DNA of 20,078 nt, taken from the IMG/VR virus record IMGVR_UViG_3300044568_001077, positions 1 through 20,078 of that record; one strand, 5' to 3'. The position numbers were made by a program, and so were the translations under genes. Shown piece after piece: positions 2,094 to 20,078 of this stretch. The stretch comes from a virus. The notes beneath the pieces are model-generated. The model was not told the DNA's origin. It saw only the letters and a program-made list of their open reading frames with translations, and ran no database searches. Position 1 is the stretch's first letter, and the number at the start of each line of letters is the position of its first letter.

Positions 2094-5000
2094 TTATTCT
2101 TGACAGGACATAGTAAATTGTACACCCACCCTTATTTGTATTTTATCTATTATTGGTTTTGAGGAACAATTAATATTCCATATCCTAACTTTTGTTGGTG
2201 GGTCTCCCATATTTTGACCATCACTATATTCATAAGCATAATCATAACCTAAAGAAATTAACTGTGCTAAACTATCATCCAACGCAGTTTCCCAAAGAGA
2301 CACACAAGGAGAGCTACTATTAGATGTTTGAGTAACAGGTTCAGTACCACACGAAATAGAGTTATACCCTGTACCATTAAAGAACGGATATTGGATAATA
2401 TTAGACCCATTTATATTTATGTCAACAAACCATTCACTATTAGTCGTATTAACATTACACGATGCCGCCAATACAACACCAGACGCAGGATTTAACCAAT
2501 TATTAATTACACTTGCAAGAACATTGTTAAAGTTACCAAATTCTAAAACACTATCCGGATATCTATCACACAATTTTGACCAAACATTACAATCACTTAA
2601 ATAAATACTACCCGTAAATTTACAAGGTTTACAAAGAATTGGAACTAATTCACAACCTCGTTGTCTTCTCCACACAAATTTTTGTCTATGAAAAATAGAG
2701 TTCTCCAACTTAACACCCGTATTCCAAATAGTACTTGCAGGTATCATTTGTTCCACTAAACGAATCCAATAATCACCCATACCACTTACATACTCAATCA
2801 TTGTTTTGTATGTAAAGTTATCATTTTGAACCCCCACTAAAGATTCTGATTGTAAATAATTCCAATAAATTGACGATAATGTCGGATAACCACTTGTTCC
2901 ACCATCGGTTGCGTATTGTCTATTTCTAACATTAATAGTGTTTTTCCAAAATGTTTGAGCAAATTCAAAAAATGTTTGTTTTCTTGGTTCAGGATTAATT
3001 ACTGTTGAATCAACTCCCCCTCTATGTGGATATGCCGATATCGGGTCAGGATTACATCTTGTTGGTGCAACATACCCCAAACCTTGATTAGCAATTGGGA
3101 AATTATATTCTCTTGACATATACCAAACATCGTAAGACAACCCTTGTCCCGGATTCAAATATAAATCAACGTTTTTTACGTTAATAACTAAATCTTCACT
3201 ATCAGTAGTATATAATGAATTATACCCACCATCTAAATTACTTCTACTACCAATTTCAGTATCAACCCAAGTTTTATTATTATCTATAGCCGAACTTAAA
3301 GTATACCCTAAATTAGTAAATGGGAATGATTTATAAACATTTAAATATTCTTGTCCATAGGTAAATGGAGCCAATTTGGTTTGGTAGTTTGGATTTGAAC
3401 CTGTAAAAACACTATTAGTTAAATCAGGTTGTTCAGGTGACCTATGTTTTGGTGTTGACTCAAACCATCCACTACCCATTTGATAGTAATAGGTTTCAGA
3501 ATTAACCGGTGATTTAGGATAACCACTATCACTAATCGGATAATCACTTTTAGTTAAATCAACACTTTCAAGAACTGAGGTTGTTGTAAACCCTGAATAT
3601 TTAACCCCCTGAATAGTAAAAGTATATCCCCCATCTAAAGTAGGTAATGTTCTATTATACGTACCCCCTGATATACTAGCATATTGTGAGTTAAAATCTG
3701 ATATATTAATTTTTTGGTCAGCCAAATAAATATATTCATTAAACTCAACTAAAGCATCCGGAGCACCAATTAATCTCATTAAAGTTTCAATAGATTTTCT
3801 AGTTCCTTTTGATTTGAATAAATAAGCCGAATTAAGAACTAAATTTTTATAATATTGGTAATTTAATTCATCAGGTGTTTGGGATTGTCCCACCCCACTA
3901 AATGCGGATTTATCTACATTTTTTTGACCAAAAACCGACCCTAAAAAGTCGTCATTAGTTATCGGTGACATATTTGTTGACCATCCTAATGTTTGAGATA
4001 AATTCTTCAATAATTGTGACGGAATATCATTACCGGTATTATAATTAACCGAGTTCATATACGCTAAACCATTAATGAATTTTTTAGTCTCATCAAAACT
4101 TCTACCATATATTTGTAGTATCTTTTCAATCTTTTGGTCTGACGTATCAAATTCTTTAAGAGAATCTGTAGTTAAAAATCTTGACACTAGATTAGTTTGA
4201 TATCCATCAAAATTAACACTAATTTCATTTAATGTTGTAAGATAAGTTGTGAAAGAATTTGTTAAAATATCTAAATTCCAACCACCATATAAAGGCCAAG
4301 TAACTAATTTATTTTGAATATAAAATGAACCATCATCATTTTCATTTGGTACCTGAAAAGTCGCAGTGTAAATTGGTACTACATTTCTATTTAACAAGAA
4401 TCTTTGAACCTCATCTAAATCTTCATTAAAAACTCTATTAACTTGGTAATCATTTGGTCTAATAACTAAATCATCATAAGTTTCCGTTAACCCTGAAAAA
4501 ACATTACCATTTATGTATAACGTAAGAGTCCCCGTAGTTAATGATGTTGTCGGTATAATATAAGTAACATCATAACCAATACCACCTAAAAATAAGGAGT
4601 ATTTAGTAAATTCTTTGGTCATATTTCTCAATGGAGAAACTTGAACTTCCCTTAACTCTAAATTTCTTGTAGCATTAACTGTAAAATCAACATCAAAAGG
4701 GTTTCTAATTCTTGAAATATTTAAATCAATACTTGTTTCGTTAGTTATTGGGTCATAAGAAATATTTGTTGCAGTTGCACCCGTTAAATAGTTTTCATCC
4801 ATAAAGCTAACTTCTAAAGCTGCCGGGAATTTACTAATAATGGTTTCAACAGACGTTGAGATTCTCTTAACCATTGAACCATATGAAGTAAAATTAGTTA
4901 CTTGAGTTAAATCAAAATTAGGATAAACTTTAAAATTATTTTCAAAAATAGCTCTTGATTGGGCAACACTATTAACACCCAAATTTTCTAAATTAATAGG

Positions 5001-5180
5001 ATTAGAAAACGCACCTGTGGTAAAAGTTCTATTTGATTTTTCAGTAATCCCGGTAGTAAACTCAAAATTACCTTGCGTTAAACCACCTCCAGCAACTAAT
5101 TGGAATCCAACTAAATTATCTGAGAATGTACCCGCACCTGTTGCCGGTTGTGGTGGACACGTAAATTTTTCTGTAGCCAT
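2094..5180 (-). CDS. Large baseplate protein with gpI / gp7-like region
   Basis: A 1028-residue protein whose ATG overlaps the preceding stop as TAATG. Residues about 330-480 resemble the tail protein I (P2 gpI, T4 gp7-like) core. A helical segment (KIEKILQIYGRSFDETKKF, 350-368) is followed near 443-473 by a YYKNLVLNSAYLFKSKGTRK-type motif leading into a short helix and IGAP. The pattern of a long helix, then K(S/T)KGTR, then a helix with a Leu/Ile-Gly end is common in baseplate proteins that bridge wedge to fibre. Near 809-842 is a second notable motif, IPASTIW followed by HRQKFVWRRQRG. After it the tail is Cys-rich, with about ten Cys between 843 and 1027, including CKPC at 850-853. The N-terminal 300 residues look beta-rich and are not recognised. 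The position before the adhesin gene supports a baseplate-to-fibre connector. The family call is moderately sure. Confidence 0.6.
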   Translation of the reverse strand: MATEKFTCPPQPATGAGTFSDNLVGFQLVAGGGLTQGNFEFTTGITEKSNRTFTTGAFSNPINLENLGVNSVAQSRAIFENNFKVYPNFDLTQVTNFTSYGSMVKRISTSVETIISKFPAALEVSFMDENYLTGATATNISYDPITNETSIDLNISRIRNPFDVDFTVNATRNLELREVQVSPLRNMTKEFTKYSLFLGGIGYDVTYIIPTTSLTTGTLTLYINGNVFSGLTETYDDLVIRPNDYQVNRVFNEDLDEVQRFLLNRNVVPIYTATFQVPNENDDGSFYIQNKLVTWPLYGGWNLDILTNSFTTYLTTLNEISVNFDGYQTNLVSRFLTTDSLKEFDTSDQKIEKILQIYGRSFDETKKFINGLAYMNSVNYNTGNDIPSQLLKNLSQTLGWSTNMSPITNDDFLGSVFGQKNVDKSAFSGVGQSQTPDELNYQYYKNLVLNSAYLFKSKGTRKSIETLMRLIGAPDALVEFNEYIYLADQKINISDFNSQYASISGGTYNRTLPTLDGGYTFTIQGVKYSGFTTTSVLESVDLTKSDYPISDSGYPKSPVNSETYYYQMGSGWFESTPKHRSPEQPDLTNSVFTGSNPNYQTKLAPFTYGQEYLNVYKSFPFTNLGYTLSSAIDNNKTWVDTEIGSRSNLDGGYNSLYTTDSEDLVINVKNVDLYLNPGQGLSYDVWYMSREYNFPIANQGLGYVAPTRCNPDPISAYPHRGGVDSTVINPEPRKQTFFEFAQTFWKNTINVRNRQYATDGGTSGYPTLSSIYWNYLQSESLVGVQNDNFTYKTMIEYVSGMGDYWIRLVEQMIPASTIWNTGVKLENSIFHRQKFVWRRQRGCELVPILCKPCKFTGSIYLSDCNVWSKLCDRYPDSVLEFGNFNNVLASVINNWLNPASGVVLAASCNVNTTNSEWFVDININGSNIIQYPFFNGTGYNSISCGTEPVTQTSNSSSPCVSLWETALDDSLAQLISLGYDYAYEYSDGQNMGDPPTKVRIWNINCSSKPIIDKIQIRVGVQFTMSCQE

Positions 5181-6088
5181 TATTGAGTTATATTTGTAAA
5201 GTTTTTACTAAAATCTATATTATTACCTCTGTCTTGTCTAACCTCATATAATAACTCATTAAATTGGTCTCTAATCTCATATAAGTTGTATTGTTTGTAT
5301 ATGTTATTAGCGTTATCGTATAATGTGTAGATACCATCATCAATTGATTTGGTTTGATTACCATATAAAGCAATTGCCAATGTTGAGAAATCGTGTTCTC
5401 CAATTTCAATATCCAAAGTTATTGGATTAAAGAAAGTATTGGTAATAATCACATTTTGATTTGGTTGTCCAATATATGGGGTCGCATTTGGCTTATTTGT
5501 TGGTGCCGATGACGGAGTTAATGTACAGAATAATAAATTTGTATTATTATCACTATATTTGTATCTTATCGCTTTTTGTGATGAGTTTGTTAAATTTTGA
5601 ACAACTGGCTCACAAAAGAATGATGACGTAATAATCCTAAAAAAGTTTGGTATTTTAGTTCCATCAGAATTTAAATATTCAATTCTAAATCCAACTAACC
5701 CCTGATTAACAAATTTATTTCTAAAATTTGCCGGTACAGAATTTAAGTCAAAAATTAAACCTTTAACATTAGGGAGAGCGGATAGAACACCACAATCTAA
5801 TATTGTGGCTCTAATTTGAACGGGTCTAATAAATAAAGTATAAATACCAATTTGGTTAAATTGTTCTGCAGGTAGTTTTAAATTATATAAACCACCTAAT
5901 ATCTCAATACCATTGTTTACACCTGTGGTATCATTATTATAGTAAGGTCTTAAAATAGACAACGCATCCAACTTTGTTAACACAAAATTATCTGTCTCAT
6001 CTCTTGATGGTGTATAATTTAAAATTATCTCAACATCTTCCGGACTTACATCCGCCGGTCTTATTGTTCCATATGTTCCTGTCGCCAT
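5180..6088 (-). CDS. Putative baseplate/tail structural protein, 302 aa
   Basis: I do not recognise a family. The protein is 302 residues, with no signal peptide or membrane segment. Residues 1-50 read like an assembly arm (MATGTYGTIRPADVSPEDVEI followed by a helix with charged ends). The middle is beta-rich with sparse Cys (near 98, 159 and 188), and the C-terminus from about 225 (ITLDIEIGEHDF) to 295 has alternating polar/aromatic strands and a final helix containing YNLYEIRDQFNELLYEVRQD. It is packed between two structural genes, 1 nt after the upstream stop and sharing one base with the downstream start (TAATG), so coupled translation and a structural role are likely. The ATG is used; the upstream bases are A/T-rich with no convincing Shine-Dalgarno sequence. 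Confidence 0.6.
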   Translation of the reverse strand: MATGTYGTIRPADVSPEDVEIILNYTPSRDETDNFVLTKLDALSILRPYYNNDTTGVNNGIEILGGLYNLKLPAEQFNQIGIYTLFIRPVQIRATILDCGVLSALPNVKGLIFDLNSVPANFRNKFVNQGLVGFRIEYLNSDGTKIPNFFRIITSSFFCEPVVQNLTNSSQKAIRYKYSDNNTNLLFCTLTPSSAPTNKPNATPYIGQPNQNVIITNTFFNPITLDIEIGEHDFSTLAIALYGNQTKSIDDGIYTLYDNANNIYKQYNLYEIRDQFNELLYEVRQDRGNNIDFSKNFTNITQ

Positions 6089-6089
6089 A

Positions 6090-7253
6090 TTATATACTAT
6101 TATTTACATTAAAAAATTTATATCCGTATTTGACCAAATCTCCTACGTTGTCAACCTCACCCAATCTTTCAACTCTCTCAAGAGCTGAGTTCTTTCCTCT
6201 CTCAATAAATATATTGGATTGCACTTCTGCCTCGTCAATTATGTTCATTAATAAATCATTTTTTACAATTGGTTGACAAACTAACATATCAGACGTTAAT
6301 CCTGATGATTTTACAACAAAAAGAGTTTTTCCATCCGAATAATCATAGTAATCAATACCATTAATTGTATAGGCAGTATATAATCCATCTGCACTAACTC
6401 CTGAATACGTACCAATCATACCTGTATTCCCCGTTACTTGAGTACCCGTTTTATATAGTGTTGTACCATATTGTTTCAAATCACTTAATGACGATGTCGT
6501 ATATCCCGTAATTAAAAATGGAATATTAGTAATTGGATTAAATAAATTAATATCATTTAAAGTAGCTTCACAACTTGAATCACCACTGAATATGTAATCA
6601 TATGACAATAATGTATTGGACCAATTACCACCCGCCGGTTGAAAATAAGCGGTTCCTTTAGGATTTGAAATTGTTGTACCCGTAAATGGGGGGTTGATTG
6701 TTTTTGTTATTATATTTGTACCCCAAGGACTCATACCTGACAGAGTAATTGTATATGCGGTAGAATTAGTATAATTATGATACATAGATGTTGATGTCAC
6801 CGCACTAACTTGTCCATCACCCCAATCAATCTTGTATGTTGAAAATTCTAAATACTTTTTAAACTCGATGTCGGACGTATTATGAAAATAACACCTATAA
6901 GGATTAATACTATTACCCGAAAAGATAAAATTTAACATCGTATCTTGTTGTAAAACCATCCCATCAAACACCGAATAATATCCGACATCAACAGTAGTTT
7001 CAGTTAACAATATCGGAATAGTTAATCCGGTTAATAATGACGCACCATTAGTACCACCTGACAATACTTCTGTCATTGACGAATACACATAAGAAGTACC
7101 TGTTAAATCAATTTTAAAAGTCTCAGCAGGAATTATACAACATTTGTTAATTATTCCGGTTCCGGTTATTGTACCCGCGTTGTATCTGACGTTAAAAATG
7201 TCTCCACTAATAAACTCAGGCGATATTTTAATACGATAATCTCTTTCAGTCAT
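6090..7253 (-). CDS. Structural protein with PKD-like domain, 387 aa
   Basis: A 387-residue protein, ATG start, 1 nt after the preceding stop. Residues about 125-190 look like a PKD (Ig-like) domain: YKIDWGDG at 140-147, then YHNY at 158-161 and AYTITLSG at 166-173, which is the WGDG...H.Y...YTVTL pattern of PKD folds. The first 110 residues are beta-rich with an adjacent Cys pair (C38-C39). The C-terminus (about 335-387) is different: a charged helix (IFIERGKNSALERVERLGEV) followed by a short GDLVKYGYKFF segment. That looks like a docking element to a neighbouring baseplate protein. PKD domains are common in Bacteroidota surface and phage fibre proteins, where they act as spacers or carbohydrate-contacting modules. 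The exact role in the particle is unknown. Confidence 0.65.
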   Translation of the reverse strand: MTERDYRIKISPEFISGDIFNVRYNAGTITGTGIINKCCIIPAETFKIDLTGTSYVYSSMTEVLSGGTNGASLLTGLTIPILLTETTVDVGYYSVFDGMVLQQDTMLNFIFSGNSINPYRCYFHNTSDIEFKKYLEFSTYKIDWGDGQVSAVTSTSMYHNYTNSTAYTITLSGMSPWGTNIITKTINPPFTGTTISNPKGTAYFQPAGGNWSNTLLSYDYIFSGDSSCEATLNDINLFNPITNIPFLITGYTTSSLSDLKQYGTTLYKTGTQVTGNTGMIGTYSGVSADGLYTAYTINGIDYYDYSDGKTLFVVKSSGLTSDMLVCQPIVKNDLLMNIIDEAEVQSNIFIERGKNSALERVERLGEVDNVGDLVKYGYKFFNVNNSI

Positions 7254-7254
7254 A

Positions 7255-8109
7255 TTACGGATTTATATACTCATACCATTTTATTGAACTTGTCGTCCCA
7301 ACTCTATTATTATTATCCCAAACTTCATATGTTTTTTCATCATAACTTAATCTAACCTCATAGTAGAAATAATCTTCAGGGTTGAATCTGAACTTTGATG
7401 GTATCTCACTTTGAGGTGTATTTGTCATTTTAACGAAAATCCCTAATCTAGCATCAAAAAATTTTGCCGTCATATAAAATTTACTAATGTCTAAGAATTT
7501 TGTGTTTCTTAACCAATATAAAAAGAACCCCTCTTTGTCACCAACATAATCTAATTTAAATGACGGTATTTTAATATTAACAGATGGTTTATATGAACTA
7601 GTTATTCCTGTAACGGTATATCCTTGTTGAACAGGGATTATTACCGTAAAATAATTAGTTTGAGTAATGGTATCTTTACTATCATAAAAATCCAATTTGA
7701 AAAAAGATTTAGTAAATGGTTTAACATAATAATATATATCTATAACGGTAAACCCCTCAGGGATATAACTAGTCACCCAATAACTTGAATTAGTTGTTGA
7801 ATTTTGAACATCATTTGACGGGTTAGCCGGAACCAAATAATCTATTCCCCCATCACTATTAGTCGTTGGTATACCAAAAAAATGAAAATCATATTTAATA
7901 TCCGTTTTTGTTTCGTTATCGTATGGTGCGTGAGCAAACCTTAAAATCTCAAAATCCCCCGGAAATCCAATTACGTCCTCAATAACATTTTGTTGATATT
8001 CCTCAACAGCACTATCTTGACCAAGAAAATCCCATTTAATTTCAATTGGTATGTTGATATATTTGTCGTCACCTTTTGGTAAGGTAAATTTATAACTATT
8101 ATTATTCAC
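7255..8109 (-). CDS. Putative baseplate structural protein, 284 aa (GTG start)
   Basis: Function not recognised. The start is GTG at 8109-8107 inside the last codons of the upstream gene (TGTGAATAA), giving an 8-nt overlap. An in-frame TAA at 8121-8119 leaves only ACG, ATT and GTG as candidates, so GTG is the only canonical choice. The protein has 284 residues, with no membrane segment and almost no Cys. The N-terminus is Lys/Asn-rich. The second half (about 185-284) has a dense aromatic beta pattern with FFLYWLRNTKFLDISKFY, then KFRFNPEDYFYYEVRL, then a WYEYINP end. Such aromatic beta-strands are usual in phage baseplate and fibre subunits. Tight coupling to both neighbours suggests it is made in step with the 633-aa protein and assembles with it; that is inference. 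Confidence 0.6.
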   Translation of the reverse strand: MNNNSYKFTLPKGDDKYINIPIEIKWDFLGQDSAVEEYQQNVIEDVIGFPGDFEILRFAHAPYDNETKTDIKYDFHFFGIPTTNSDGGIDYLVPANPSNDVQNSTTNSSYWVTSYIPEGFTVIDIYYYVKPFTKSFFKLDFYDSKDTITQTNYFTVIIPVQQGYTVTGITSSYKPSVNIKIPSFKLDYVGDKEGFFLYWLRNTKFLDISKFYMTAKFFDARLGIFVKMTNTPQSEIPSKFRFNPEDYFYYEVRLSYDEKTYEVWDNNNRVGTTSSIKWYEYINP

Positions 8110-10003
8110 AATCGTCGGTTATTGGTTGAGCCGCTCCATAAAGAGTAGCGTAATTATGTAAAGTACTTTCTATATAATTAGTTCCTTCAGGTATTATTCT
8201 AAAAATATAATTATTATATGGGTAATGTTTTCCATTCAAAAATGGAGAGTCAACACCATTACCACTACCATCTTTAAAACCATAGGTGTATAAATCTCTC
8301 CAAATAAACGAATTATAAGTTGTTGAGAAATACGAATAATCCGGAACATCCGCAATATTTGTAATACTCCCTGTTTCAATGTAATCTGAAAACGCTCTAA
8401 TTCTCATTGGTCTATTTGGTTTGTAATAATAACCTAATTGATTGTTATTATTATCTAGTAAACTCATATCAAACACATCTGAATTAAATGTGAACTTATG
8501 ATACATTTCAGAAATAATTCTTTCTTTTTGTTCATAATCATTCCACTCACAATAATTACCATTTATTGTATCACCACTTTTAAGTGATTTAAGATATATG
8601 AAATCAATATTACCATTATTCACAAACCCATAAGGAGTGTTATAATATCCTATTGGGTATGGGTTATTATTTGAATCCACAAAATTTGACTCAACATTAT
8701 TTCCTTCCCACCAAGGTTGTGGAGTATTAAACTGATTATCTACCGGTGATAAATTAAAATCGAACCCTTGTTTTAACCCTACATCATTACCATTATTGTC
8801 AACACTTCCAAAAGTTAATCCAAAATAACCTTTCCATATTGTGGTAATATATAACTCACTAATTGGTCTTTTTTGATTATCACGTAACTCACTCACGTCA
8901 ATATCTTTATTAAAAGATAAAGTATATGATTGAGAATTTTCTTTAATAGAAGTTCTCTTTACATTATTTGGTGTATAAACAGGACTTTCAAATTTCTTTT
9001 TAGTCCCAAATATATTTTTTTCAAATCCGGCATTAACTAAAACAGCGTCATTAACATCTGTAATTATTTTATGTTGAATTACATAATATTTAGAGGTAGT
9101 GTCATTAGGATTTTCATAATTTATAATTCTTTTAAACGTACCCGTATCACCTTCAATAAAAATTGAAGGCGAATACCCAATATTAAAGATATTAAAAATA
9201 TATTCTTCAGTACCCGGTAACCCATCACCAAATGAGAACACTTGGAATGTATTAACATACCCACCACTTAACTTAATTTTAACAAATTCCGATTCCGATA
9301 ATCCGTGTTTAACAGGGCATTTAAACCTAATAATTGGGTTACCACCTTCTAACAACGGATTTGGTGTAACACCATTAGCAATACTAGCCCCGGTACTATC
9401 ATCAATTTTAACATAAAAAGGAATTCCATCAACAGCGTTCCAAACTAACGAAGGTGTTAAAAGATTTGTCCCATCATAATAATTCATAACCTTATCTATG
9501 TTCTTATATGGATAACTAACAAAATGATTCCAATTATAGGTTGACGCACTTCTTGCAACAAAATCTACGTGAACCATAGGTGCCGCTCCGGGTATTGTTG
9601 AAGGTATTGGAAGGGTATATCCCGACACACTATAGTCACTTCTAATAAAATCAAACTCATCATACTGAGGAAACCCTTGCCACGAAACTGCGGTTGGATT
9701 TACTCCACATTGTTTTAATGTTAACGCAGTCTCGTTAATATAATATAAATTATTTTCTAGTGGTTCATAGTTTGTTGACCCGGTATATGAATTATTAAAT
9801 AAGACTTGAAACTTACAAACCGGTCTAAATGTTGTTGATTTTTGTCTTTCGTCATTAAACACCTGAGCCAAATTAACATCAATACTTCTATCAAATTCTT
9901 GTAAATTTTTTGAGTTTTGAACTAACGGTGTTGGGACAGATAAATCAGTATTTGTTGATGTTTTATATCGTAACGACCCTAATACTATTCTTATATCATC
10001 CAT
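8102..10003 (-). CDS. Putative tail/baseplate structural protein, 633 aa
   Basis: A 633-residue protein with an ATG start, 1 nt after the stop of the 1884-aa gene. No family is recognised with certainty. The sequence is rich in Asn, Tyr, Ser and Gly with no signal peptide and no membrane helix, typical of an extended virion protein. Near residues 223-275 there is a segment IIRFKCPVKHGLSESEF followed by FQVFSFG and EEYIFNIFNIGY. It resembles the HGL-type beta motif seen in many phage appendage proteins (a strand, the HGL turn, then a strand ending in an aromatic). The N-terminus (1-65) is a mixed segment with VCKFQVLF, possibly an attachment arm. It is in the central block of coupled structural genes. 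Other possibilities include a wedge-periphery or short-fibre adaptor protein. Confidence 0.6.
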   Translation of the reverse strand: MDDIRIVLGSLRYKTSTNTDLSVPTPLVQNSKNLQEFDRSIDVNLAQVFNDERQKSTTFRPVCKFQVLFNNSYTGSTNYEPLENNLYYINETALTLKQCGVNPTAVSWQGFPQYDEFDFIRSDYSVSGYTLPIPSTIPGAAPMVHVDFVARSASTYNWNHFVSYPYKNIDKVMNYYDGTNLLTPSLVWNAVDGIPFYVKIDDSTGASIANGVTPNPLLEGGNPIIRFKCPVKHGLSESEFVKIKLSGGYVNTFQVFSFGDGLPGTEEYIFNIFNIGYSPSIFIEGDTGTFKRIINYENPNDTTSKYYVIQHKIITDVNDAVLVNAGFEKNIFGTKKKFESPVYTPNNVKRTSIKENSQSYTLSFNKDIDVSELRDNQKRPISELYITTIWKGYFGLTFGSVDNNGNDVGLKQGFDFNLSPVDNQFNTPQPWWEGNNVESNFVDSNNNPYPIGYYNTPYGFVNNGNIDFIYLKSLKSGDTINGNYCEWNDYEQKERIISEMYHKFTFNSDVFDMSLLDNNNNQLGYYYKPNRPMRIRAFSDYIETGSITNIADVPDYSYFSTTYNSFIWRDLYTYGFKDGSGNGVDSPFLNGKHYPYNNYIFRIIPEGTNYIESTLHNYATLYGAAQPITDDCE

Positions 10004-10004
10004 T

Positions 10005-13000
10005 TTAATTTACAATATTACTAGTGTTTATCCATTTTGTTCTAAATCTATCAAATGCGGATGCTCCTCTTTTAAGACCAAAATAAAAGTGGAATGGTGC
10101 CCCTGTAGTCACCTGTTCAGGACCAGGATTGTTTTTATCCCAATATTGTACAAGTGCAGTAATTGAACCATTTTGCATTGGAGTCCCTCCCGGTGTTGAT
10201 GGTGTTAAACTATTCCCATTGGTAACCGCGTATATATACCCTTTTAAATAATTATTTTGTGAGGTATTATAACTTCTAAAGTATCTCGATGGTGGTGATA
10301 ATCTATCTAAAGATTGATATTTTGACGAATAAATTGTACTATAATCCCAATCATTAGATTCTCCTCCAAAAATACTATTTTTACTACCTGAGGTCGCGTC
10401 AATAGTCCATTGAGACAACGGAACTAATTGAGAATAAACCGGGAAATTGCTAAAAGTACAAAAACTTGCGGTTGTCCCAATAGGGTTTATAATAGTTCTC
10501 TTTGGTGTAACATAATCTCTAAGTTGTGTATCTGATGAAAAGAATATTCCCAAAGAGTTATCACAATCAAAGAAAATTGGGTTTTGAATCGCGGGGTCAA
10601 CTAACGCAGACCCTGTACCTGTACCTGGACCTGTCGCAACAAATAATGTATTAATAGCGTTACTTGTGGCACCAATTGAGGTAAAATTAGTTGGGTTAGA
10701 AGGCGTACCATCTGACAATATCTTATATTGAATACCTGTAACAAAACCACCCGCACCAACTACTGTTGGTGAATCAGGATAATTAGATGATTGAAATGAC
10801 GCCACACCTAACTCAGAATTAATAGAAATTAATTGAGCGTAGTCAGCGTCAATCAAATATCTACCGTCCCTATCATTTTGAAAATATGCGAAAATATTAA
10901 GTGCCCCTAACGCATTTTCTAAAAAGTTATTATCCATAAATCTACTTACAATAAATAAATTTAATATTTCATCTACGTGAGAATATGTTGATGTTTCTAA
11001 CTTATTTACTAAATAACCGTCGTACTCATCTGACATAACCAACTCTTGTAAAAACGCCGACCTAGGACCTAAATCCATAATAGTAGTAGGAAACTTCAAT
11101 GGACCACTAAATTCCCCTGAACTAGGGTTATACGGTGAACATCTATAATAAAAACTTCTTGACGGATTATGATACATTACAACATCGTTACAATATCTAG
11201 CGATAGGTGCATTTGGTGGATTAGCCGTAGGAGAACTAAACCCTCTCACTTCATTTTTAAATGCAAAAGCATATAAAACACCATTAACCCAATTATTATT
11301 AAATCTATGCGAGAAGACATTTCTACACGCACCGAGCATTACCATATTTCGTGCAATCCACTCAAACATTAATTCCCAATCTCTTAATAATGAAATGAAT
11401 ATAGTTGTTATAAAAATATAACATCCACCCTCAAAAATTGTTTCACCATTAAATTCTAAACAAGGGTTTCCTCTTGGTCTTATTAATATAGTACTATTAA
11501 CCGGAGATTTTTGACATCCGTAACACTCTAAATTAACAGAACCTTCACAAGTAAATGTATTAATAACTTGATTTATTTTTGGGGATTGATTTAAATCTTC
11601 CCTTACATCATCTAAAGACCCGTTTCCAACAGAACCACTTGGTCCTGCAACCGAATTTATACCAATAACACCTGTTTCAGGTATTTGATACATAGCAAAC
11701 TTACTATTCTTTTGTAATACACGTCCATTACAACAATATTCTTCAACATTTGTACTTGTAGGTAATCTATCACCTCTCATAACAATTTGATTATTTGTCA
11801 TACCCGGAAATGTAGTCCCAACACTACCTAATGTGAAATTCATAGTGTTCGCAGTTGTAGCATAAATAGGTGAATAATAATAACTATAAACTCTTGGTGT
11901 TTGAACATTAGCACAACAGAAAATCAAGGAACTACTTTCAGACGGTCCTGTCGGTATAAATTGTTCCATATGTAACATTGACGACCCTTCAACAATTTCA
12001 TTAGGGATATACCCCTCATTTCTACCGGTAGTCGAATAATATCTTGTGGTTCCCGTATTTAATGTCATCCAAGGTAAGTTACTTCTATTACAGTCACGAT
12101 TCACCCCACAAGTTCCATTACGAGTTAATTTAAAAGTCGGATTTCTTGACCACGCCAAGGTAAAACCATTAGCAGTTCCAACTGATATTCCGTGAAATGG
12201 GTCGGCATTTGCTCCAGCACCAATTGGAGGTGTTTGAGGTTTTGGAGTAGCCTCGTCATCTCCCGAGTTAGGCGTTCCATTAGTAGGTTGTATATTATTA
12301 CAACTTGGTTTATATTGTGACGTTATTGAACGATTATCTAAACTAGAATAATAACTAATTAAATTTGAATTAAACCCTGAAAATCTTGAAGTTTTTTGAG
12401 TCCAAGTTGTCGCAGTTAAACCATTAGTATATCCTGTAACATAATCCCAAGTTTCTCGTTGATTATCACAATAAGAAAATGAATTAAAATATAATTGTTG
12501 ACCATTTGCATAAGTATTTTCACTATTAACATTTCCACCAACCGTTACTGAATTACCCCCAACCCAAGTTTGACCTATAACAAAATTTGATGTACCACCA
12601 CTTGGTAATGGTGTCCAAGCTGGAAGTGGTATTGTAGACGCTCTTTCAGTTGAGGAGTGACTAATATTTATAAAACTACCCTGAATAGGTATATTCATCC
12701 TATAAAACCCCTTTATTTTTACCGCACTTTCTGAACTATACCCAAAAAGTTTACCTACACCATATTCAATCGGTATTTTAGAGGTATAAGGGTCAACACC
12801 TCTATTTAATATTACGACGTAATTATCGTTAACATATCTAACATAATTTATTGACTTTAATACTTTAACACCAGGTAATAATTGTCCCGGAATCGCTCCA
12901 ACAAAATCAATATACCCTCTACCACCATATTGATTGCTATTAGTATTATTATACATTTTAAAAAAAGTGGTGTCGTTTGCAAAATATTTTTGATTTAATG

Positions 13001-15659
13001 AATTAGGTAAGAAATCTGGTGATGTAGGGGTTAAGCACATACCACTAAATGAACTATAAGTCATTCCCGTAATAACTTGGAAGTATTCGACATCAATTGG
13101 AAATTTATGAATATTTGTGGTCGATGTTGCTGTTATCGTAACGTTATATAATGGTGATTGGGTATTTCCATTACCGTTAGGGTTTGCATAATTAACTCTA
13201 ATTTGTGTATTACCGGTATATGTTGTACCTGTAATAGCATTATTATTAAATTTATTTTTAATACCTCCCGTTAAATTTGGGTCTTTAGTATAAGATGGAT
13301 TTTGGAACGATATCATTTGACCCGTAGCAAATTTCTTAGCAGTAGATTTATCACATAATATTACAATAGTATTATCATAATGCACATTAGTTTGACCTGT
13401 TTGAAAATTAACAGAAATTCTATTAACTCCACCTCCAGGATTGTTTGCCGTTTGGTCAAAATATTTTGCTTTAACATTAAATAAATTAATTCTATCTGCA
13501 AGAGGTAAACCATTAGTAAACCAATCCCATTCGTTCGCCAAAGTATCTCCACCCGAACCTGTAGTCAATATTTCTGATTGGAAATAAGGAGCCCCAATAG
13601 TGGATGAACCGTATTGACCATCATAGGTATACCCCGCAAAATCATTAGCTAAAATAGTTTTTAATTGACCATTAAAACCTGTTGGATTTGTCTCCGCATT
13701 ATATGACGGTAATCTAAATCCCGAAAAAGTCGATACAGGGGCTAATATTAAACCATTATTTAATGGAGAAATTGGTCTTGGGTCAGAGAATATTGTTGGA
13801 CAAGGTTGTAATTTATCCTCCTCATCAGCAGGTGCACCATCAGGGTCAGGTTCTTCATTAATTGGTTGACCTTGATTACAAGAACATAAATCACAATCCG
13901 GATATGTTAAAATTGGGACTTTAATACCTTTTAAATCAATTTCCCATAATTTTCGTAGAATATAATATAATAATATCGATAAAATTAAATAAATTACTAT
14001 CATTGCTGCGTAACCTGCAATCATACCTAACGCGTATGGTACACACCCTATAATTAATAAAGCGTAATTAACAATACTCGCTAAACACCAAACTATTAAC
14101 CCAGGTATTACAATAATTCTCAACAACCATATTACAAAATATAAAATGTGTAATAGAAGTATTAACGCGAAAAAAACAGGTGTTAATATGATACTAAAAA
14201 ACATAAAAATTATGTAGATTATATCAAACCTAAAATTACCATCATTTGTTGGGAATTTATTGTTTTCACTTTCACACGACTCTTCTAAAATATTTTTAAT
14301 ACCAATATATCTTTCAGTACCACTACCTTTTTTATGATTATCAATAAACTCAGAAACAGTATAAACTTTATTATACTGCATCATATAAAATTTATCTTCA
14401 CAATTTATTGCGTCTTGAATCATTTGTTGGTCACCATAATCCGCCCAATCTACACTAAAAGCGTACGATTCTACCTGAAATGTTGAATATTCTCTAATAT
14501 TAGGCACTAAATAATAAGCTCGTTTTGTTATATCAGATAATGATGGTGATTGAGCCCATTTAACTTTAAAACGATACTTCGCCTTAGTTGGAATTCCAAC
14601 TTCAGGGTCGTTAGATATAACCTGTTCACCAAACTCATTTGTGGTGTAGTAATCCATATTCATCGGAACATCAATTAACCAAGTCCCGTTTTCATCAATA
14701 ACTTTACCACCACCTTCTAAACTGAAATTTTCAAGAATAGGTAAACCATTAGAATCTTGTAGAATTGTTTGTCTAATTGCCAATATTTCCCCCGGTCCCG
14801 CAACTAAACTACATAAATGACCCGACCTGTTAGTTGGTTTACAATTAGATTTTACAGCATTTGTATTAGAATCAGAAATAATTGACCCCATAAAAACAGA
14901 CGTTGGTCTAATATCAATTTTTGATTCACTACTTAAATCAAAATCAGTTCTTGTAATACCTAAATTACAAATTTCGGGTTGTCCCCATAATGGGTCAACC
15001 TCAATAGATTTAATAAGATTAATGATTTGTGGTAATTCACGTAAGTTATTTGATGATTTAAAGTTAGTCCCTGAAACTTGAGCCTCAGTCGCTAATCCCA
15101 TTCTAATCAAATCTTGTGGTGATAATGAAAATTCACCGATATCAGATAAGTCAACATCCATTACAATAGTATGAGACCCTACCGGAACTCCAAATATCAT
15201 ATAATCCCCACTTTCGTTGGTTACCGCGTTATATTTGTAGTATTTGTCATAAACATCAATTAAAGTTGGATTTGTTAAAACATCTTTTCTTGTAAAAAAT
15301 GTTCCGGTTGGCACGTGAGCACTATATGATTGGACATATGGTAATAAATTATATCTATAACCATCATCATTATTATCCAATAATGTTTTATAAGGGTATA
15401 ACTCCGATATGATTGGGTTTGTTTGGTCCACACTATCAATAGGAATAAAGATAGAAACTTTAGCGTTTGGAAGACCAAAACCATTATTAACACTAACACG
15501 ACCAACAATCACACCGTAGTCAGAGCATTGTCTTGTGTAGATATCACTTTGTAAAATTTTTAAGGATAGAATCTCTAAATATTCGAATTCTTGTTCAACT
15601 AATACCTTCAAAGAAGTATCAACACCGACCTTCGTTCTTATTCTATATGATTTTGACAT
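10005..15659 (-). CDS. Giant virion-like protein with carboxypeptidase-regulatory-like domain and multi-pass hydrophobic region, 1884 aa
   Basis: The largest gene here, ATG start. Residues about 47-170 look like a carboxypeptidase-regulatory-like (beta-sandwich) domain: GVIVGRVSVNNGFGLPNAKV at 49-68, and NESGDYMIFGVPVGSHTIV at 148-166, the paired signature of that fold. Residues about 479-568 are almost uninterrupted hydrophobic sequence (Ile/Leu/Phe/Val/Tyr), enough for three to five membrane helices. Directly after come CDLCSC (589-594) and an acidic Pro/Asp/Glu linker (601-616). The remaining 1260 residues are Asn/Thr/Ser/Gly/Tyr-rich, virion-like, with Cys clusters around 1248-1249, 1309-1310, 1371-1382 and 1400-1413, and a second hydrophobic patch about 1413-1443. 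The C-terminal segment ends in HFYFGLKRG followed by a charged helix. Being in the tail operon suggests a virion component; the membrane segments suggest involvement in membrane contact or passage. No homologue is recognised. Confidence 0.7.
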   Translation of the reverse strand: MSKSYRIRTKVGVDTSLKVLVEQEFEYLEILSLKILQSDIYTRQCSDYGVIVGRVSVNNGFGLPNAKVSIFIPIDSVDQTNPIISELYPYKTLLDNNDDGYRYNLLPYVQSYSAHVPTGTFFTRKDVLTNPTLIDVYDKYYKYNAVTNESGDYMIFGVPVGSHTIVMDVDLSDIGEFSLSPQDLIRMGLATEAQVSGTNFKSSNNLRELPQIINLIKSIEVDPLWGQPEICNLGITRTDFDLSSESKIDIRPTSVFMGSIISDSNTNAVKSNCKPTNRSGHLCSLVAGPGEILAIRQTILQDSNGLPILENFSLEGGGKVIDENGTWLIDVPMNMDYYTTNEFGEQVISNDPEVGIPTKAKYRFKVKWAQSPSLSDITKRAYYLVPNIREYSTFQVESYAFSVDWADYGDQQMIQDAINCEDKFYMMQYNKVYTVSEFIDNHKKGSGTERYIGIKNILEESCESENNKFPTNDGNFRFDIIYIIFMFFSIILTPVFFALILLLHILYFVIWLLRIIVIPGLIVWCLASIVNYALLIIGCVPYALGMIAGYAAMIVIYLILSILLYYILRKLWEIDLKGIKVPILTYPDCDLCSCNQGQPINEEPDPDGAPADEEDKLQPCPTIFSDPRPISPLNNGLILAPVSTFSGFRLPSYNAETNPTGFNGQLKTILANDFAGYTYDGQYGSSTIGAPYFQSEILTTGSGGDTLANEWDWFTNGLPLADRINLFNVKAKYFDQTANNPGGGVNRISVNFQTGQTNVHYDNTIVILCDKSTAKKFATGQMISFQNPSYTKDPNLTGGIKNKFNNNAITGTTYTGNTQIRVNYANPNGNGNTQSPLYNVTITATSTTNIHKFPIDVEYFQVITGMTYSSFSGMCLTPTSPDFLPNSLNQKYFANDTTFFKMYNNTNSNQYGGRGYIDFVGAIPGQLLPGVKVLKSINYVRYVNDNYVVILNRGVDPYTSKIPIEYGVGKLFGYSSESAVKIKGFYRMNIPIQGSFINISHSSTERASTIPLPAWTPLPSGGTSNFVIGQTWVGGNSVTVGGNVNSENTYANGQQLYFNSFSYCDNQRETWDYVTGYTNGLTATTWTQKTSRFSGFNSNLISYYSSLDNRSITSQYKPSCNNIQPTNGTPNSGDDEATPKPQTPPIGAGANADPFHGISVGTANGFTLAWSRNPTFKLTRNGTCGVNRDCNRSNLPWMTLNTGTTRYYSTTGRNEGYIPNEIVEGSSMLHMEQFIPTGPSESSSLIFCCANVQTPRVYSYYYSPIYATTANTMNFTLGSVGTTFPGMTNNQIVMRGDRLPTSTNVEEYCCNGRVLQKNSKFAMYQIPETGVIGINSVAGPSGSVGNGSLDDVREDLNQSPKINQVINTFTCEGSVNLECYGCQKSPVNSTILIRPRGNPCLEFNGETIFEGGCYIFITTIFISLLRDWELMFEWIARNMVMLGACRNVFSHRFNNNWVNGVLYAFAFKNEVRGFSSPTANPPNAPIARYCNDVVMYHNPSRSFYYRCSPYNPSSGEFSGPLKFPTTIMDLGPRSAFLQELVMSDEYDGYLVNKLETSTYSHVDEILNLFIVSRFMDNNFLENALGALNIFAYFQNDRDGRYLIDADYAQLISINSELGVASFQSSNYPDSPTVVGAGGFVTGIQYKILSDGTPSNPTNFTSIGATSNAINTLFVATGPGTGTGSALVDPAIQNPIFFDCDNSLGIFFSSDTQLRDYVTPKRTIINPIGTTASFCTFSNFPVYSQLVPLSQWTIDATSGSKNSIFGGESNDWDYSTIYSSKYQSLDRLSPPSRYFRSYNTSQNNYLKGYIYAVTNGNSLTPSTPGGTPMQNGSITALVQYWDKNNPGPEQVTTGAPFHFYFGLKRGASAFDRFRTKWINTSNIVN
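13956..14228 (-). other. Hydrophobic multi-pass segment within the 1884-aa protein
   Basis: The nucleotides encode residues about 478-568 of the giant protein. The stretch contains IIYIIFMFFSIILTPVFFA, then LILLLHILYFVIWLL, then LIVWCLASIVNYALLIIGCV, then AAMIVIYLILSILLYYIL, closed by RKLWEIDLK. Charged residues are nearly absent apart from two Arg flanking segments, so three to five transmembrane helices are plausible. Domain boundaries are by eye. Confidence 0.8.
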
Positions 15660-15728: not shown

Positions 15729-16655
15729 TTATGTCTCGTATTTATATTTTTTCACAAAATCAATAGGGTTTGACTTCATTTCTAAAAAATTATTAACAAT
15801 TTCAATAACATACTTGTTAATTGTATTATCTATGGATGTATGAGTAGTGTCAGGAATATCAATATTAATTACTTTAGTTATTAAATTATTTTTAAATAAT
15901 GACACATTACCTCCTGAATTAGTAAAGAAATACATATTATCAGACCACTTAACTGACATAAAATTTATTGCGTAAGTAACATTATCTTTAATTTGGTAAT
16001 CATAATTGTTATCTAATTGGTTTGCACTATCTAAAAATATGGTTAAATCTACCTTAATATTTTCTTTATTTAGATTATCCAATACCTGAGCAATATTATA
16101 TCCACCAATACTATGTCCAACTAAAACAACTTTACCGGTTGGATTAAATAACCTAAAATATTTGACGGTTTTAAATATTTCTTCGGAAGTTAAATTATAA
16201 TTATTGGTTCCCACATATGTAATAACACTTGTTTCATTAGTTTCTATTTTACTTTCTAATAAACCCAACCCATCTAAATCTCTTGAATGGGTAATGTCAA
16301 TTTGAATTTCATTAGGCCCGGTTACGTCTTTAAATGGGCTTAACGCCCCTTCAGCAACAATAACTAAATTTTTAGTATTTTTATTAAAATAATCTTGAGA
16401 ATATTGAGTTTTTTCTAAAATTCTTCTATGTTTTAAATCATTAAAATCTGACATAATAAAAGAAGATATTACTAATAATAAAAAAAATTGGAATTTTGTT
16501 ATTTTTTTAGTTTGTCTAATTTGATTAAAATAAATTAAAAAAACAATAAAAGAACAAATTAATCTAAAATTAAGGTATAGTCCCGCAACAAACCATTGAG
16601 CCCAAGTTCCGTTATACCCTTTAATTAAAGTTAAAATATCTGTAACATAATCCAT
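15729..16655 (-). CDS. Membrane-anchored alpha/beta serine hydrolase (lipase-like)
   Basis: A 308-residue protein with an alpha/beta-hydrolase catalytic pattern. The strand VVLVGHSIGG (176-185) gives the GxSxG nucleophile elbow with Ser182. IFLDSA gives Asp209, and TTHTSID gives His272, in the usual Ser-Asp-His order. The N-terminus has two hydrophobic helices at about 22-43 and 55-69 separated by a basic loop (QIRQTKKITK), so the enzyme should be fixed in a membrane. The basic loop suggests it is cytoplasmic and the catalytic domain lies on the other face, though Lys/Arg after helix two make this uncertain. Likely chemistry is ester or lipid hydrolysis; the substrate is unknown. It sits between gp6 and the giant gene and is very rich in A/T. 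Its ATG lies inside a hairpin. It could be a moron-type cargo gene, a host-envelope modifier, a lysis aid or a virion effector. Confidence 0.75.
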   Translation of the reverse strand: MDYVTDILTLIKGYNGTWAQWFVAGLYLNFRLICSFIVFLIYFNQIRQTKKITKFQFFLLLVISSFIMSDFNDLKHRRILEKTQYSQDYFNKNTKNLVIVAEGALSPFKDVTGPNEIQIDITHSRDLDGLGLLESKIETNETSVITYVGTNNYNLTSEEIFKTVKYFRLFNPTGKVVLVGHSIGGYNIAQVLDNLNKENIKVDLTIFLDSANQLDNNYDYQIKDNVTYAINFMSVKWSDNMYFFTNSGGNVSLFKNNLITKVINIDIPDTTHTSIDNTINKYVIEIVNNFLEMKSNPIDFVKKYKYET

Positions 16656-16686: not shown

Positions 16687-18525
16687 TCAAGAGAAGTTAA
16701 CTGTTTTTAAATTTTTAACTCTAATATTAATATCTTTGTTTGGATATTTAATTTGATATGTTTGATTTGGTTGAGCAAAGATTGTCTCATCAATTAATTC
16801 AATTTGTTTAGTCGTACTATCAATATATCTTTGAGATGTTTGTGACGATGAGTATTGACCTCCAACTTGATTAAATACTTGAATATCTGATACTGAGATT
16901 ACCCCGTTTTCACTTTGGATTAATCGTCTCAATTCTGATATATTAACATTCTCACCTAATTGTCTGTTAATTGGTTCAAAATAATCAGAAACAATAGTTA
17001 TTATTTGAGAAATTACCGTACCTTGATTTTGAGTGTTATCTAACACCACATCAATATTAAAACTTAAATCAATAACATTTGCACTTTGTATTGATACATA
17101 ATCATTTATCATACGATAATTTGATAGGTAATTTGCAACATTATTTTTTAAAGTGTTTGAGATTACTTCAGTTAATCGACCTGTTTCATCATAAGATAAC
17201 ATTTGAACAATTATCTTGTTATTATTTTCAGTTATTGATACTTTAGCCGGAGCACCAAATTGAGACGGCATTGTTCTAATTATTGATTCATAATCATTTA
17301 CAGTTACAGCTCTTTTTTGAGCTGAAAAATTATATGATACTAAATTTCTAATTTCTTCTGTTGTTGGAAAGTTAGCCCCACCAATAGCCGCAGTAACATT
17401 AGTACATCTTAATGAGTTAACTACAGTTGTGTTAACACTATCAGACGGTCCATTAACAAAGAATGAAACAGTACCAATTTGAGTAATAGCGTTAACCCCA
17501 ATATTACTACCTACACCACCACCCACTCTATATTGAATGAATATTGTAGTGTTAGGTTTTAACGTACTACCTAAAGCCAAATTATTCGAGTATTTGTATA
17601 AATTCAATTGATATCCGTCTCTTGCAAATTCTCTTAATTGTTCATCAGATGATTGGGAACCTCCACCAAAAGTAACTTTAAGAAACCCTTCAGGTGTAAA
17701 CTCAGTGATAAATTTGTTACTAGTTTGAATATATTTTCCAACTTTAATTCCCGGAGAATCCGAAACTTTAGTAGGGTCTTCTACAAACACTCTGTCCTCA
17801 GCTAACGCGTCCACTTCATACCATCTATTATCTAAACCTAAAAATTCTTGAACTGAAGGTATATTGGTATATTGTGTGCTATCTTTTAATAATACACTAG
17901 TCACACCTAAGACATTTTTATCCGGTAAAAATAGTTCATAAAAAGGTCTAACGTCATTTGGTGTTATAACTTTTTTGAATACTTTTGTTGTTCCGTTTAC
18001 TACGGTTTCTCGTTTAGTAATAGTATAATTTAATAATTTATTATTTGAATCAAAATTAGGTATTTTTAGTCTATTTGGAAATCCTTCACCATTAATTGGT
18101 GATGAGAAATCAATATCATAAACAGTTTCAAAGACTTGACCAGCCCCATTAACCTGAGAACCTCGTCTTAATATACCACAATATCTTAAATCTTCTTTAT
18201 CACCAAAAGCCGGAACCGTAATTGAAAAATCAACTAACGCAACAGATGGTCTCATTCCCGGAACTTTTAACCCGTAAGTTTTTGCAATATTAAAAACTGA
18301 TGACCTTTGTTGCGCATATTGAAGTACCGTCTCTTGAATACTTCTATCTATATTGAATTGTAAGTTATCTGTTACCGCAGCATTTAAATCTAATAACACC
18401 GAAAAAACCGACGCATCATTAAAGTTTTGGATTGTATCCGGATAATACGTTCTAGTAAAGTTAATTAGTTCCGTTCTAATTGATTGGAAATCCCTTGTAG
18501 TGTAGGAAATTTTTTTATTTGCCAT
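16687..18525 (-). CDS. Baseplate wedge protein, gp6 / J family
   Basis: A 612-residue protein of the baseplate J / T4 gp6 family, the dimeric wedge core that forms the inner ring of contractile tail baseplates. The N-terminus has the typical start: YTTRDFQSIRTELINF (8-23), the D-x-S-V-F-x-x-L-L-D-L segment (37-47), then DNLQFNIDRSIQETVLQ and QRSSVFNIAKTYGLKVPG (53-90). The conserved second half has AVTVNDYESII (406-416), followed by APAKVSITENNNKIIVQML and a repeated strand-helix fold to about residue 555. T4 gp6 has about 660 residues, so the length fits. It ends in tandem stops TGA TAA. It follows the gp25 gene by 5 nt, the W-J order of P2/Mu tails. The leader (TATATAAAAATT) has no Shine-Dalgarno sequence. 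Confidence 0.93.
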   Translation of the reverse strand: MANKKISYTTRDFQSIRTELINFTRTYYPDTIQNFNDASVFSVLLDLNAAVTDNLQFNIDRSIQETVLQYAQQRSSVFNIAKTYGLKVPGMRPSVALVDFSITVPAFGDKEDLRYCGILRRGSQVNGAGQVFETVYDIDFSSPINGEGFPNRLKIPNFDSNNKLLNYTITKRETVVNGTTKVFKKVITPNDVRPFYELFLPDKNVLGVTSVLLKDSTQYTNIPSVQEFLGLDNRWYEVDALAEDRVFVEDPTKVSDSPGIKVGKYIQTSNKFITEFTPEGFLKVTFGGGSQSSDEQLREFARDGYQLNLYKYSNNLALGSTLKPNTTIFIQYRVGGGVGSNIGVNAITQIGTVSFFVNGPSDSVNTTVVNSLRCTNVTAAIGGANFPTTEEIRNLVSYNFSAQKRAVTVNDYESIIRTMPSQFGAPAKVSITENNNKIIVQMLSYDETGRLTEVISNTLKNNVANYLSNYRMINDYVSIQSANVIDLSFNIDVVLDNTQNQGTVISQIITIVSDYFEPINRQLGENVNISELRRLIQSENGVISVSDIQVFNQVGGQYSSSQTSQRYIDSTTKQIELIDETIFAQPNQTYQIKYPNKDINIRVKNLKTVNFS

Positions 18526-18530
18526 AATTT

Positions 18531-18989
18531 TTATATATTAATAATTACAAAGTCGCTACTATTAAACACATCATTATTGATGATATAATCAATCTTAACT
18601 TTTGCGGTATGTTCTTTATTTGAGATGTCTGACACACGAAATATTCTTTCATCGTTATCGTTAATGTAACTACCTTTATCTTCATCATCATCAGAAGCTG
18701 CGGTAATACTAATATTAGTTATTCTTATTCCGGGTAGATACACTCCGGCAGCCTCTCTAATTTCTGCTTCAATTTCAGAAAAAGTAGGACCATCTAAAGG
18801 TTCAAAAATAAATTCGTATAACCTTGTCCCAAAATCAGGTAAATAATATCTACTACCTTTTTTTGATAATAAAAGGTGTATTAAGTTAGACCTAATCTCT
18901 TGGTCATTATAATCTGATAAATCTAAATATTTCCCATCAAAAGAATCTCTGAAAGGAAAAGTTAAACCATATGTAATTCCATCTGCCAT
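18531..18989 (-). CDS. Baseplate wedge protein, gp25 / W family
   Basis: A 152-residue protein of the GPW/gp25 family, which joins the sheath and the wedge at the baseplate. The key sequence PDFGTRLYEFIFEPLD (51-66) carries the conserved FGxxL...FEP signature. It is preceded by IRSNLIHLLLSKKGSRYYLP (32-51) and followed by a helix and a beta-rich end with YLPGIRITNISITAA. An acidic insert (DDDEDKGSYINDNDE, about 99-113) sits between two strands of the second half. It begins the tail operon directly after an nrdA terminator and is followed by the gp6 gene at 5 nt. The ATG lies 1 nt after an ACTATAnnTATAGT inverted repeat, with no recognised Shine-Dalgarno sequence. Confidence 0.93.
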   Translation of the reverse strand: MADGITYGLTFPFRDSFDGKYLDLSDYNDQEIRSNLIHLLLSKKGSRYYLPDFGTRLYEFIFEPLDGPTFSEIEAEIREAAGVYLPGIRITNISITAASDDDEDKGSYINDNDERIFRVSDISNKEHTAKVKIDYIINNDVFNSSDFVIINI

Positions 18990-19074: not shown

Positions 19075-20078
19075 TTAAGAACCACATCCGAAACACTCAA
19101 ACTCGGAATCTGAAGGTTTTTGTGTTATATCAACAGTTGGTTTCTCAATTGGTTTTGGTTGACCCACTTTTGAGATATCGACCGCCAAGTGTTTTGCTCC
19201 GGTTGATATCGCTTTTGTTCTAACATAATAACAAAGAGTTTTTAATCCTTTACCCCAAGAATGGAAGTGTGATGACGAAATCTTTGATAATGTCGGATTA
19301 GACATATAGATATTCATCGATTGTGATTGGTCAATGAACGGAGCTCTGTCAGCCGCCATATCAATAAGTTCTCTTTGAGATATCTCCCAAATTGTTTTGT
19401 ACTTTGGAATTAAATGTTCAATTCTTTTAACTTTCTTGTTGTAATTTTTATCCTCAACATCAAGGTAATGGTTAAAGTTAATATTTTGAATAGAACCTTC
19501 ATTCATAATAATTTCATTTTTCAAATCTTCAGACCAAATACCTATCTTTTCAAAATCATTGATTAAATATTTGTTAACAATTAAAATCTCACCCCCAACA
19601 ACTCTTCTGTTAAATAATGCCGAGTGAGCCGGTTCTGTCATTTCAAATGAACCTGTGATTTTAGCTGAAGACGCTACCGGCATCTGAGCCGTGAATAACG
19701 AGTTACAAACCCCGTGGTTAGACACTTCTAATTTAAGTGAGTCCCAATCCCACATTCTACCTAATCCTTCGTAATCTAATCCCCACATATCAAATTGGAA
19801 TATACCTTTTGACATTGGTGAACCTTTGAAGAATTCATATGGTTTATATTCACCTGATTTACATAATTCCATACTTTCAGTAATTGCTGCGAAGTAGATA
19901 GTTTCAAATATTTCTTTGTTTAACTTTCTTGCCTCTTCAGATGTGAAGATATAATCCATTAAGTAAAATACGTCAGCAAGACCTTGTGTTCCAATCGCAA
20001 TCGCTCTTTGTTCCAAACCACCTTTTCTACCTTGTTCGGTTGAATAACTATTGATATCAACAACTTTGTTAAGTGCTC
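19075..20078 (-). CDS. nrdA: Class I ribonucleoside-diphosphate reductase large subunit, C-terminal part (partial)
   Basis: The 333 visible residues are the C-terminal part of the catalytic (R1) subunit; the gene continues beyond the right edge. The frame runs through the edge as ALNKVVDINSYS, so a TTG at 20016 is internal and not the start. Family landmarks in order: QRAIAIGTQGLADVF, FETIYFAAI, GSPMSKGIFQFDMWG, HGVCNSLFTAQMPVASSAK, NRRVVGGEILIVNKYL, AADRAPFIDQSQSMNIYM, then TLCYYVRTKA, which includes the adjacent tyrosines of the radical transfer path. The last residues are CFGCGS, a CxxC re-reduction tail of the type seen in eukaryotic R1, where E. coli NrdA has CxxxxC. The enzyme makes deoxynucleotides for phage replication with an R2 partner not in the window. 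The active-site cysteines that perform reduction lie upstream and are not visible. Confidence 0.95.
   Translation of the reverse strand, partial: ALNKVVDINSYSTEQGRKGGLEQRAIAIGTQGLADVFYLMDYIFTSEEARKLNKEIFETIYFAAITESMELCKSGEYKPYEFFKGSPMSKGIFQFDMWGLDYEGLGRMWDWDSLKLEVSNHGVCNSLFTAQMPVASSAKITGSFEMTEPAHSALFNRRVVGGEILIVNKYLINDFEKIGIWSEDLKNEIIMNEGSIQNINFNHYLDVEDKNYNKKVKRIEHLIPKYKTIWEISQRELIDMAADRAPFIDQSQSMNIYMSNPTLSKISSSHFHSWGKGLKTLCYYVRTKAISTGAKHLAVDISKVGQPKPIEKPTVDITQKPSDSEFECFGCGS

Follow-up and report, generated by a model that had tools for sequence, protein, structure and literature searches.

The window, i.e., the whole 20,078-nt stretch that was analysed (IMG/VR record IMGVR_UViG_3300044568_001077, positions 1 to 20,078), carries on its minus strand adjacent gp25-like and gp6/Baseplate_J-like genes, the arrangement of the wedge module of T4/P2 type contractile phages. 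These are followed by an alpha/beta hydrolase gene, by an open reading frame for an 1884-aa protein, here termed the giant protein, and by five further genes (Table 1). The order gp25 - gp6 - (variable slot) - giant - 633 - 284 - 387 - 302 - 1028, where numbers are protein lengths in aa, is kept in most of 27 neighbourhoods. The first-pass annotation had placed the giant protein between gp6-like and gpI-like genes. The gp6-like assignment holds with both Pfam and phrog_219, with the 308-aa hydrolase gene separating it from the giant gene, but neither Pfam nor PHROGs supported a gpI identity for the 1028-aa protein. The 1028-aa gene does lie downstream, but four genes intervene. The protein displays a weak similarity (E=6e-4) to a 1265-aa protein of Flavobacterium phage immuto.

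Table 1. Features of the giant protein locus and of the related small membrane protein; aa numbers refer to the giant protein
Feature	Position	Strand	Basis or remark
gp25-like baseplate wedge protein	18531..18989	-	PF04965 E=6.3e-9; phrog_261 E=8.6e-14
gp6 / Baseplate_J-like wedge protein	16687..18525	-	PF04865 E=3.9e-8; phrog_219 E=1e-24
Alpha/beta hydrolase, 308 aa, GHSIGG, hydrophobic N-terminal segments	15729..16655	-	Pfam/PHROG searches; gp6-giant slot
Giant baseplate-operon protein, 1884 aa	10005..15659	-	Intact ORF; predicted product
N-terminal region, aa 1-460, conserved; Cna-B / carboxypeptidase-regulatory-like beta-sandwich domains	14280..15659	-	AlphaFold pLDDT mostly 80-94 from aa 45
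Hydrophobic block, aa 474-573	13941..14240	-	Hydropathy, TM-grade 19-mers, conservation
Predicted helix 1, aa 480-539	14043..14222	-	AlphaFold; helical moment peak at 100 degrees
Predicted helix 2, aa 544-573	13941..14030	-	AlphaFold
CDLCSC cysteine cluster, aa 589-594, after conserved P-x-L-x-YP-x-C motif	13878..13895	-	C589, C592, C594 unchanged across 40 close relatives
Acidic linker, aa 602-616, poorly conserved	13812..13856	-	Sequence
C-terminal motif (F/Y)-F-G-L-x-x-G, aa 1855-1884	10008..10097	-	Common to many relatives
Five syntenic genes downstream of giant (633, 284, 387, 302, 1028 aa)	2094..10003	-	Order kept in almost every related locus examined
Small membrane protein (loci L154-L165, L169, L170, L172, L175, L208)			Immediately upstream of giant

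The hydrolase gene is accessory and occupies the gp6-giant slot of only some relatives; within the clade of the window this slot holds the hydrolase or is empty. By eye, the GHSIGG, Asp and His motifs of the hydrolase look conserved in three relatives. At the two ends of the window are a SprB-repeat-type protein that closes the tail operon (2-2056, minus strand) and, directly before gp25, the C-terminal part of a ribonucleotide reductase-like protein (19075-20076, minus strand), ahead of which a putative second subunit gene is seen by eye in relatives. A 1190-aa counterpart of the SprB-type protein, from a 272-kb relative, carries Pfam SprB repeats, and BLAST matches between the SprB-like protein of the window and some sister-clade giants suggest repeat-like C-termini in those giants.

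The giant protein belongs to no named family in Pfam, PHROGs or NCBIfam, a PDB sequence search gave no relative, and tblastn with family members against INPHARED (50,697 annotated phage records) gave no meaningful match, in agreement with the earlier remark that no such family had been described. The same Pfam, PHROG, NCBIfam and PDB sequence searches showed no likeness to gp7 or gpI. The N-terminal region has a weak, below cut-off match to CarboxypepD_reg (E=0.079). Foldseek with aa 1-600, the part that was folded, against the PDB aligned the N-terminal region with beta-sandwich surface proteins of the pilin and adhesin type at low TM-score; gp7 was not among the matches listed. Thus no baseplate role can be read from the fold search. 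The sole family member found in a public named database is A0A8S5LA66 (BFVD; an uncharacterized protein of Myoviridae sp. ctPuP5), a 994-residue model fragment with 36% identity (E=6.7e-47, TMq 0.65). An assembly or frameshift artefact was rejected, since the identical protein is present on two independent contigs and dozens of distinct relatives keep a single open frame.

The first-pass annotation had pointed to about 90 hydrophobic residues at aa 478-568 (positions 13956-14228, minus strand), and the measurements confirm them. The mean Kyte-Doolittle (KD) hydropathy is 2.23 over the 91 residues from aa 478 and 2.41 over the 60 residues from aa 480. None of 2000 shuffles of the giant protein reached either mean, and the 91-residue mean stayed at or below 1.35 throughout; the 19-residue KD peak of 2.81 was matched by 10 of the 2000. 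Chance hydrophobicity was rejected on the basis of these shuffles and of the family-wide conservation described below. Transmembrane (TM) grade was scored by summing the Hessa biological scale over 19-mers without weights, a strict test because polar residues near the ends are charged in full. Three non-overlapping TM-grade 19-mers are found in the block, at 495-513, 521-539 and 546-564, and none in the other proteins of the window. With the KD, octanol and biological scales serving as proxies for TM prediction, the block shows hydrophobic helices of TM grade, a feature of integral membrane proteins.

An AlphaFold model of aa 1-600, computed with 81 diverse alignment rows (mean pLDDT 83, pTM 0.63), shows beta-sandwich domains up to about aa 430, followed by two helices with pLDDT of about 78-96. 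A shallower alignment of 40 close relatives lowered the pLDDT to 47, yet the same helices were obtained. Averaged over 77 non-redundant sequences, hydropathy at aa 479-514 oscillates at 100 degrees per residue, the periodicity of a straight alpha-helix, and a distant clade shows the same 100-degree peak despite a different sequence. The polar stripe of helix 1 over these residues is narrow and conserved, consisting of D479 (71/77), T/R/K493, H504 (75/77) and position 511, and the remaining faces are all strongly hydrophobic. This periodicity with so narrow a polar face is unlike that of a typical soluble amphipathic helix. A two-helix hairpin split at P494 was considered and is disfavoured, since the helical phase continues unbroken across this residue, which argues against a turn there. 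The multi-pass topology proposed earlier is uncertain, the model giving one 60-residue and one 30-residue helix. The CDLCSC motif that had been noted after the block is indeed present, with its three cysteines invariant among close relatives, and so is the acidic linker that follows it; in the distant clade the cysteines after the block are arranged differently.

Pattern scans confirmed by tblastn gave 156 giant-family loci in IMG/VR when the window protein was the query, and more than 550 with a profile of the N-terminal region. Three further contigs with family members are binned in bacterial MAGs. A 2220-aa family protein (locus L150) is encoded by contig CATEWF010000002.1, which is binned as a Mycoplasmatota MAG but is probably a phage contig. 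The block is at the same site in 55/55 distinct close sequences. At least one strict TM-grade segment (one to three) is found in the block of 142 of 163 relatives of 560 aa or longer, always after the conserved beta-sandwich region of about 450 aa, and only 3 such segments lie outside the block in about 207,000 residues of the family. In far relatives the identity is about 25% at residues 480-600 versus 60-85% in the N-terminal region. Thus these residues are among the less conserved parts yet are still hydrophobic, and it is the property that is kept rather than the sequence. In a tree of the N-terminal region, with block columns excluded, the TM state is on both major sides.

The length of the block ranges from 33 to about 95 residues. 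Weaker or amphipathic versions are found in the L173-L192 clade and in L166, L171 and L150, and the block is missing from L151/L153 (747/743 aa), L152 (728 aa; a long branch whose placement in the tree is unsure) and L183 (1177 aa). Such relatives indicate that the core protein can work without the block. Soluble homologues lacking the segment had been named beforehand as evidence against a membrane reading; by their sequences they appear to exist but are rare, being confined to a small minority (L151/L153, L152 and L183).

A second candidate membrane protein is encoded next to the giant gene in the sister clade. In 16/16 sister-clade loci checked, a gene for a small protein of 109-156 aa lies directly upstream of the giant gene at a distance of 0-35 nt, mostly 0-12. 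The protein is Cys-rich, with an N-terminal motif of the M-x-C-x(1-2)-C-K type (MGCNCK type) and a hydrophobic helix that often has a central Pro, and in most members the tail is very acidic. It has no confident Pfam or PHROG family. To the eye, its helix resembles helix 1 of the giant protein in a S-x-x-x-T-P pattern. Short relatives of it precede the giant gene in L150 and L183, and it is absent from the clade of the window. Predictions from sequence thus suggest that the slot before the giant gene repeatedly holds membrane proteins, either the small acidic TM protein or a TM-bearing hydrolase.

Large relatives give an indication of the phages concerned. A tail sheath match is found in 6/7 large contigs, 4 of them above the Pfam cut-off; the 272-kb relative has the sheath C-terminal domain above cut-off together with tail tube, baseplate-hub-like, gp32-like and UvsX-like genes. 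Ribosomal protein S21 (bS21) is encoded by 4/4 contigs larger than 270 kb (272-322 kb). Large phages that encode bS21 have been assigned to freshwater Bacteroidetes (PMC9723584), and the giant-family phages are like these in that one gene. The carriers are best explained as large, uncultured, T4-like contractile-tailed jumbo phages of Bacteroidota, up to 322 kb.

The giant gene is single-copy in 9/9 large relatives examined, and its product has by far the highest hydropathy peak of the 84 ORFs in a 120-kb part of the 272-kb relative. The tape measure candidate, a helix-rich protein of 581-649 aa whose gene follows the tube gene, is free of TM-grade segments in the six genomes examined (maximal 19-residue KD at or below 1.35), and the other structural proteins near the giant gene likewise have no such segment. 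That the giant protein itself is the tape measure was rejected given its beta-sandwich N-terminal region, the position of its gene after gp6 and the presence of this separate candidate. In the phages immuto, LR756508 and Mel-JY01, a profile search found no giant homologue next to gp6, and none of the proteins above 150 aa encoded after gp6 has such a hydrophobic block.

The block is strong, conserved and helical, and a membrane protein recurs as its neighbour; together these points favour a membrane role, and we consider that the block probably works inside a membrane. The membrane contact proposed in the first-pass annotation thereby gains support from a family-wide TM-grade block, two predicted helices, nearby structural proteins free of such segments and, in the sister clade, an adjoining membrane-protein gene. 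The giant protein may tentatively be viewed as a structural protein of the baseplate operon that carries a membrane-inserting module (aa 474-573) on its conserved beta-sandwich N-terminal region. From gene position alone we infer its presence in the virion. As a virion component it would keep the block shielded within the particle; when the baseplate meets the cell the block would insert into the host membrane, where it could hold the baseplate or help to open the membrane, and the polar stripe would lie at helix-helix contacts. Such a use at infection is possible, and we put it forward with reserve.

The block may instead serve while particles are being made, as a hairpin in the inner membrane of the producing cell on which baseplates are built or held; in the sister clade the small membrane protein would be its partner or docking site. 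Co-translational insertion is the usual fate of strong TM segments in a growing chain, the small acidic TM protein gene lies immediately upstream in every sister-clade locus checked, and Cis13, TssN and CisA are precedents in non-phage contractile machines. However, phage particles have to come off the membrane when the cell lyses, and the clade of the window has no small partner, its slot holding the hydrolase or nothing. We regard an anchor during assembly as rather unlikely. A third possibility dispenses with lipid altogether: the helices would pack together or on other wedge proteins to form the hydrophobic core of an oligomer. Helix 1, at about 60 residues (about 90 angstroms), is longer than a bilayer and too long for a single crossing, a polar stripe runs along one of its faces, and some relatives have amphipathic, moderately hydrophobic versions; T4 wedges do use helical core bundles. 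The length of the helix and the weaker variants keep a buried bundle in consideration, but TM-grade hydrophobicity on nearly all faces, a block length that varies nearly threefold and the presence, in the protein of the window, of three segments that are TM-grade on the strict scale argue against it, and it too seems doubtful.

It might also be that the giant protein never enters the virion, being an accessory or assembly factor such as a membrane-bound scaffold removed before maturation. Hydrophobic blocks would suit scaffolds or chaperones. The place of the gene in the conserved gp25-gp6-giant-633-284-387-302-1028 block, its product's large size and beta-sandwich make-up, as is usual for structural proteins, and the one gene copy per genome all speak against such a role, and we consider it improbable.

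If the membrane-inserting reading is correct, a still more speculative view is that this widespread lineage of Bacteroidota jumbo phages docks its baseplates to the host membrane, or opens it, through the wedge layer and not the tail tube, in one clade with a dedicated small membrane partner, and so is the equivalent among phages of membrane-anchored contractile injection systems (CIS). The way in which contractile phages engage and cross membranes is far from settled, and baseplate wedge proteins are generally regarded as soluble. Here, a protein of the wedge operon has a conserved module of membrane type, which hundreds of contigs from uncultured large phages carry and which the searched annotated isolates lack; it offers a concrete candidate and a parallel to these systems.

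The locus resembles the T4 wedge genes gp25-gp6-gp7 in that gp7 and the giant protein share the operon position after gp25 and gp6; T4 gp7 is not known to have such a hydrophobic block. Phage tape measure and ejection proteins with TM segments (such as TP901-1 TMP, PMC5099701; review, PMC8954989) are structural proteins as well, and their hydrophobic segments are reported to work at the membrane of the host. They sit in the tail tube or head, whereas here it is a protein of the wedge operon that has the block, and the probable tape measure is without it. The closest parallels in function are membrane-anchored contractile injection systems. Outside phages, CisA is required for firing of the Streptomyces CIS (PMC12237407). 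In Bacteroidota, the same phylum as the predicted hosts, TssN couples T6SS-iii baseplates to the membrane through TssK by multi-pass helices (PMC10781749); there the membrane part is a separate protein with no evident homology to the giant protein. In the thylakoid-anchored CIS of Anabaena, too, part of the baseplate or tail fibre of the contractile machine bears a TM helix, which anchors Cis13/Cis12 in the membrane, and removal of the Cis13 helix frees the particle (PMC8894136). The Anabaena system is non-phage and its helix is C-terminal in a tail-fibre-like protein; with no known sequence relationship, the likeness to the giant protein is one of function.
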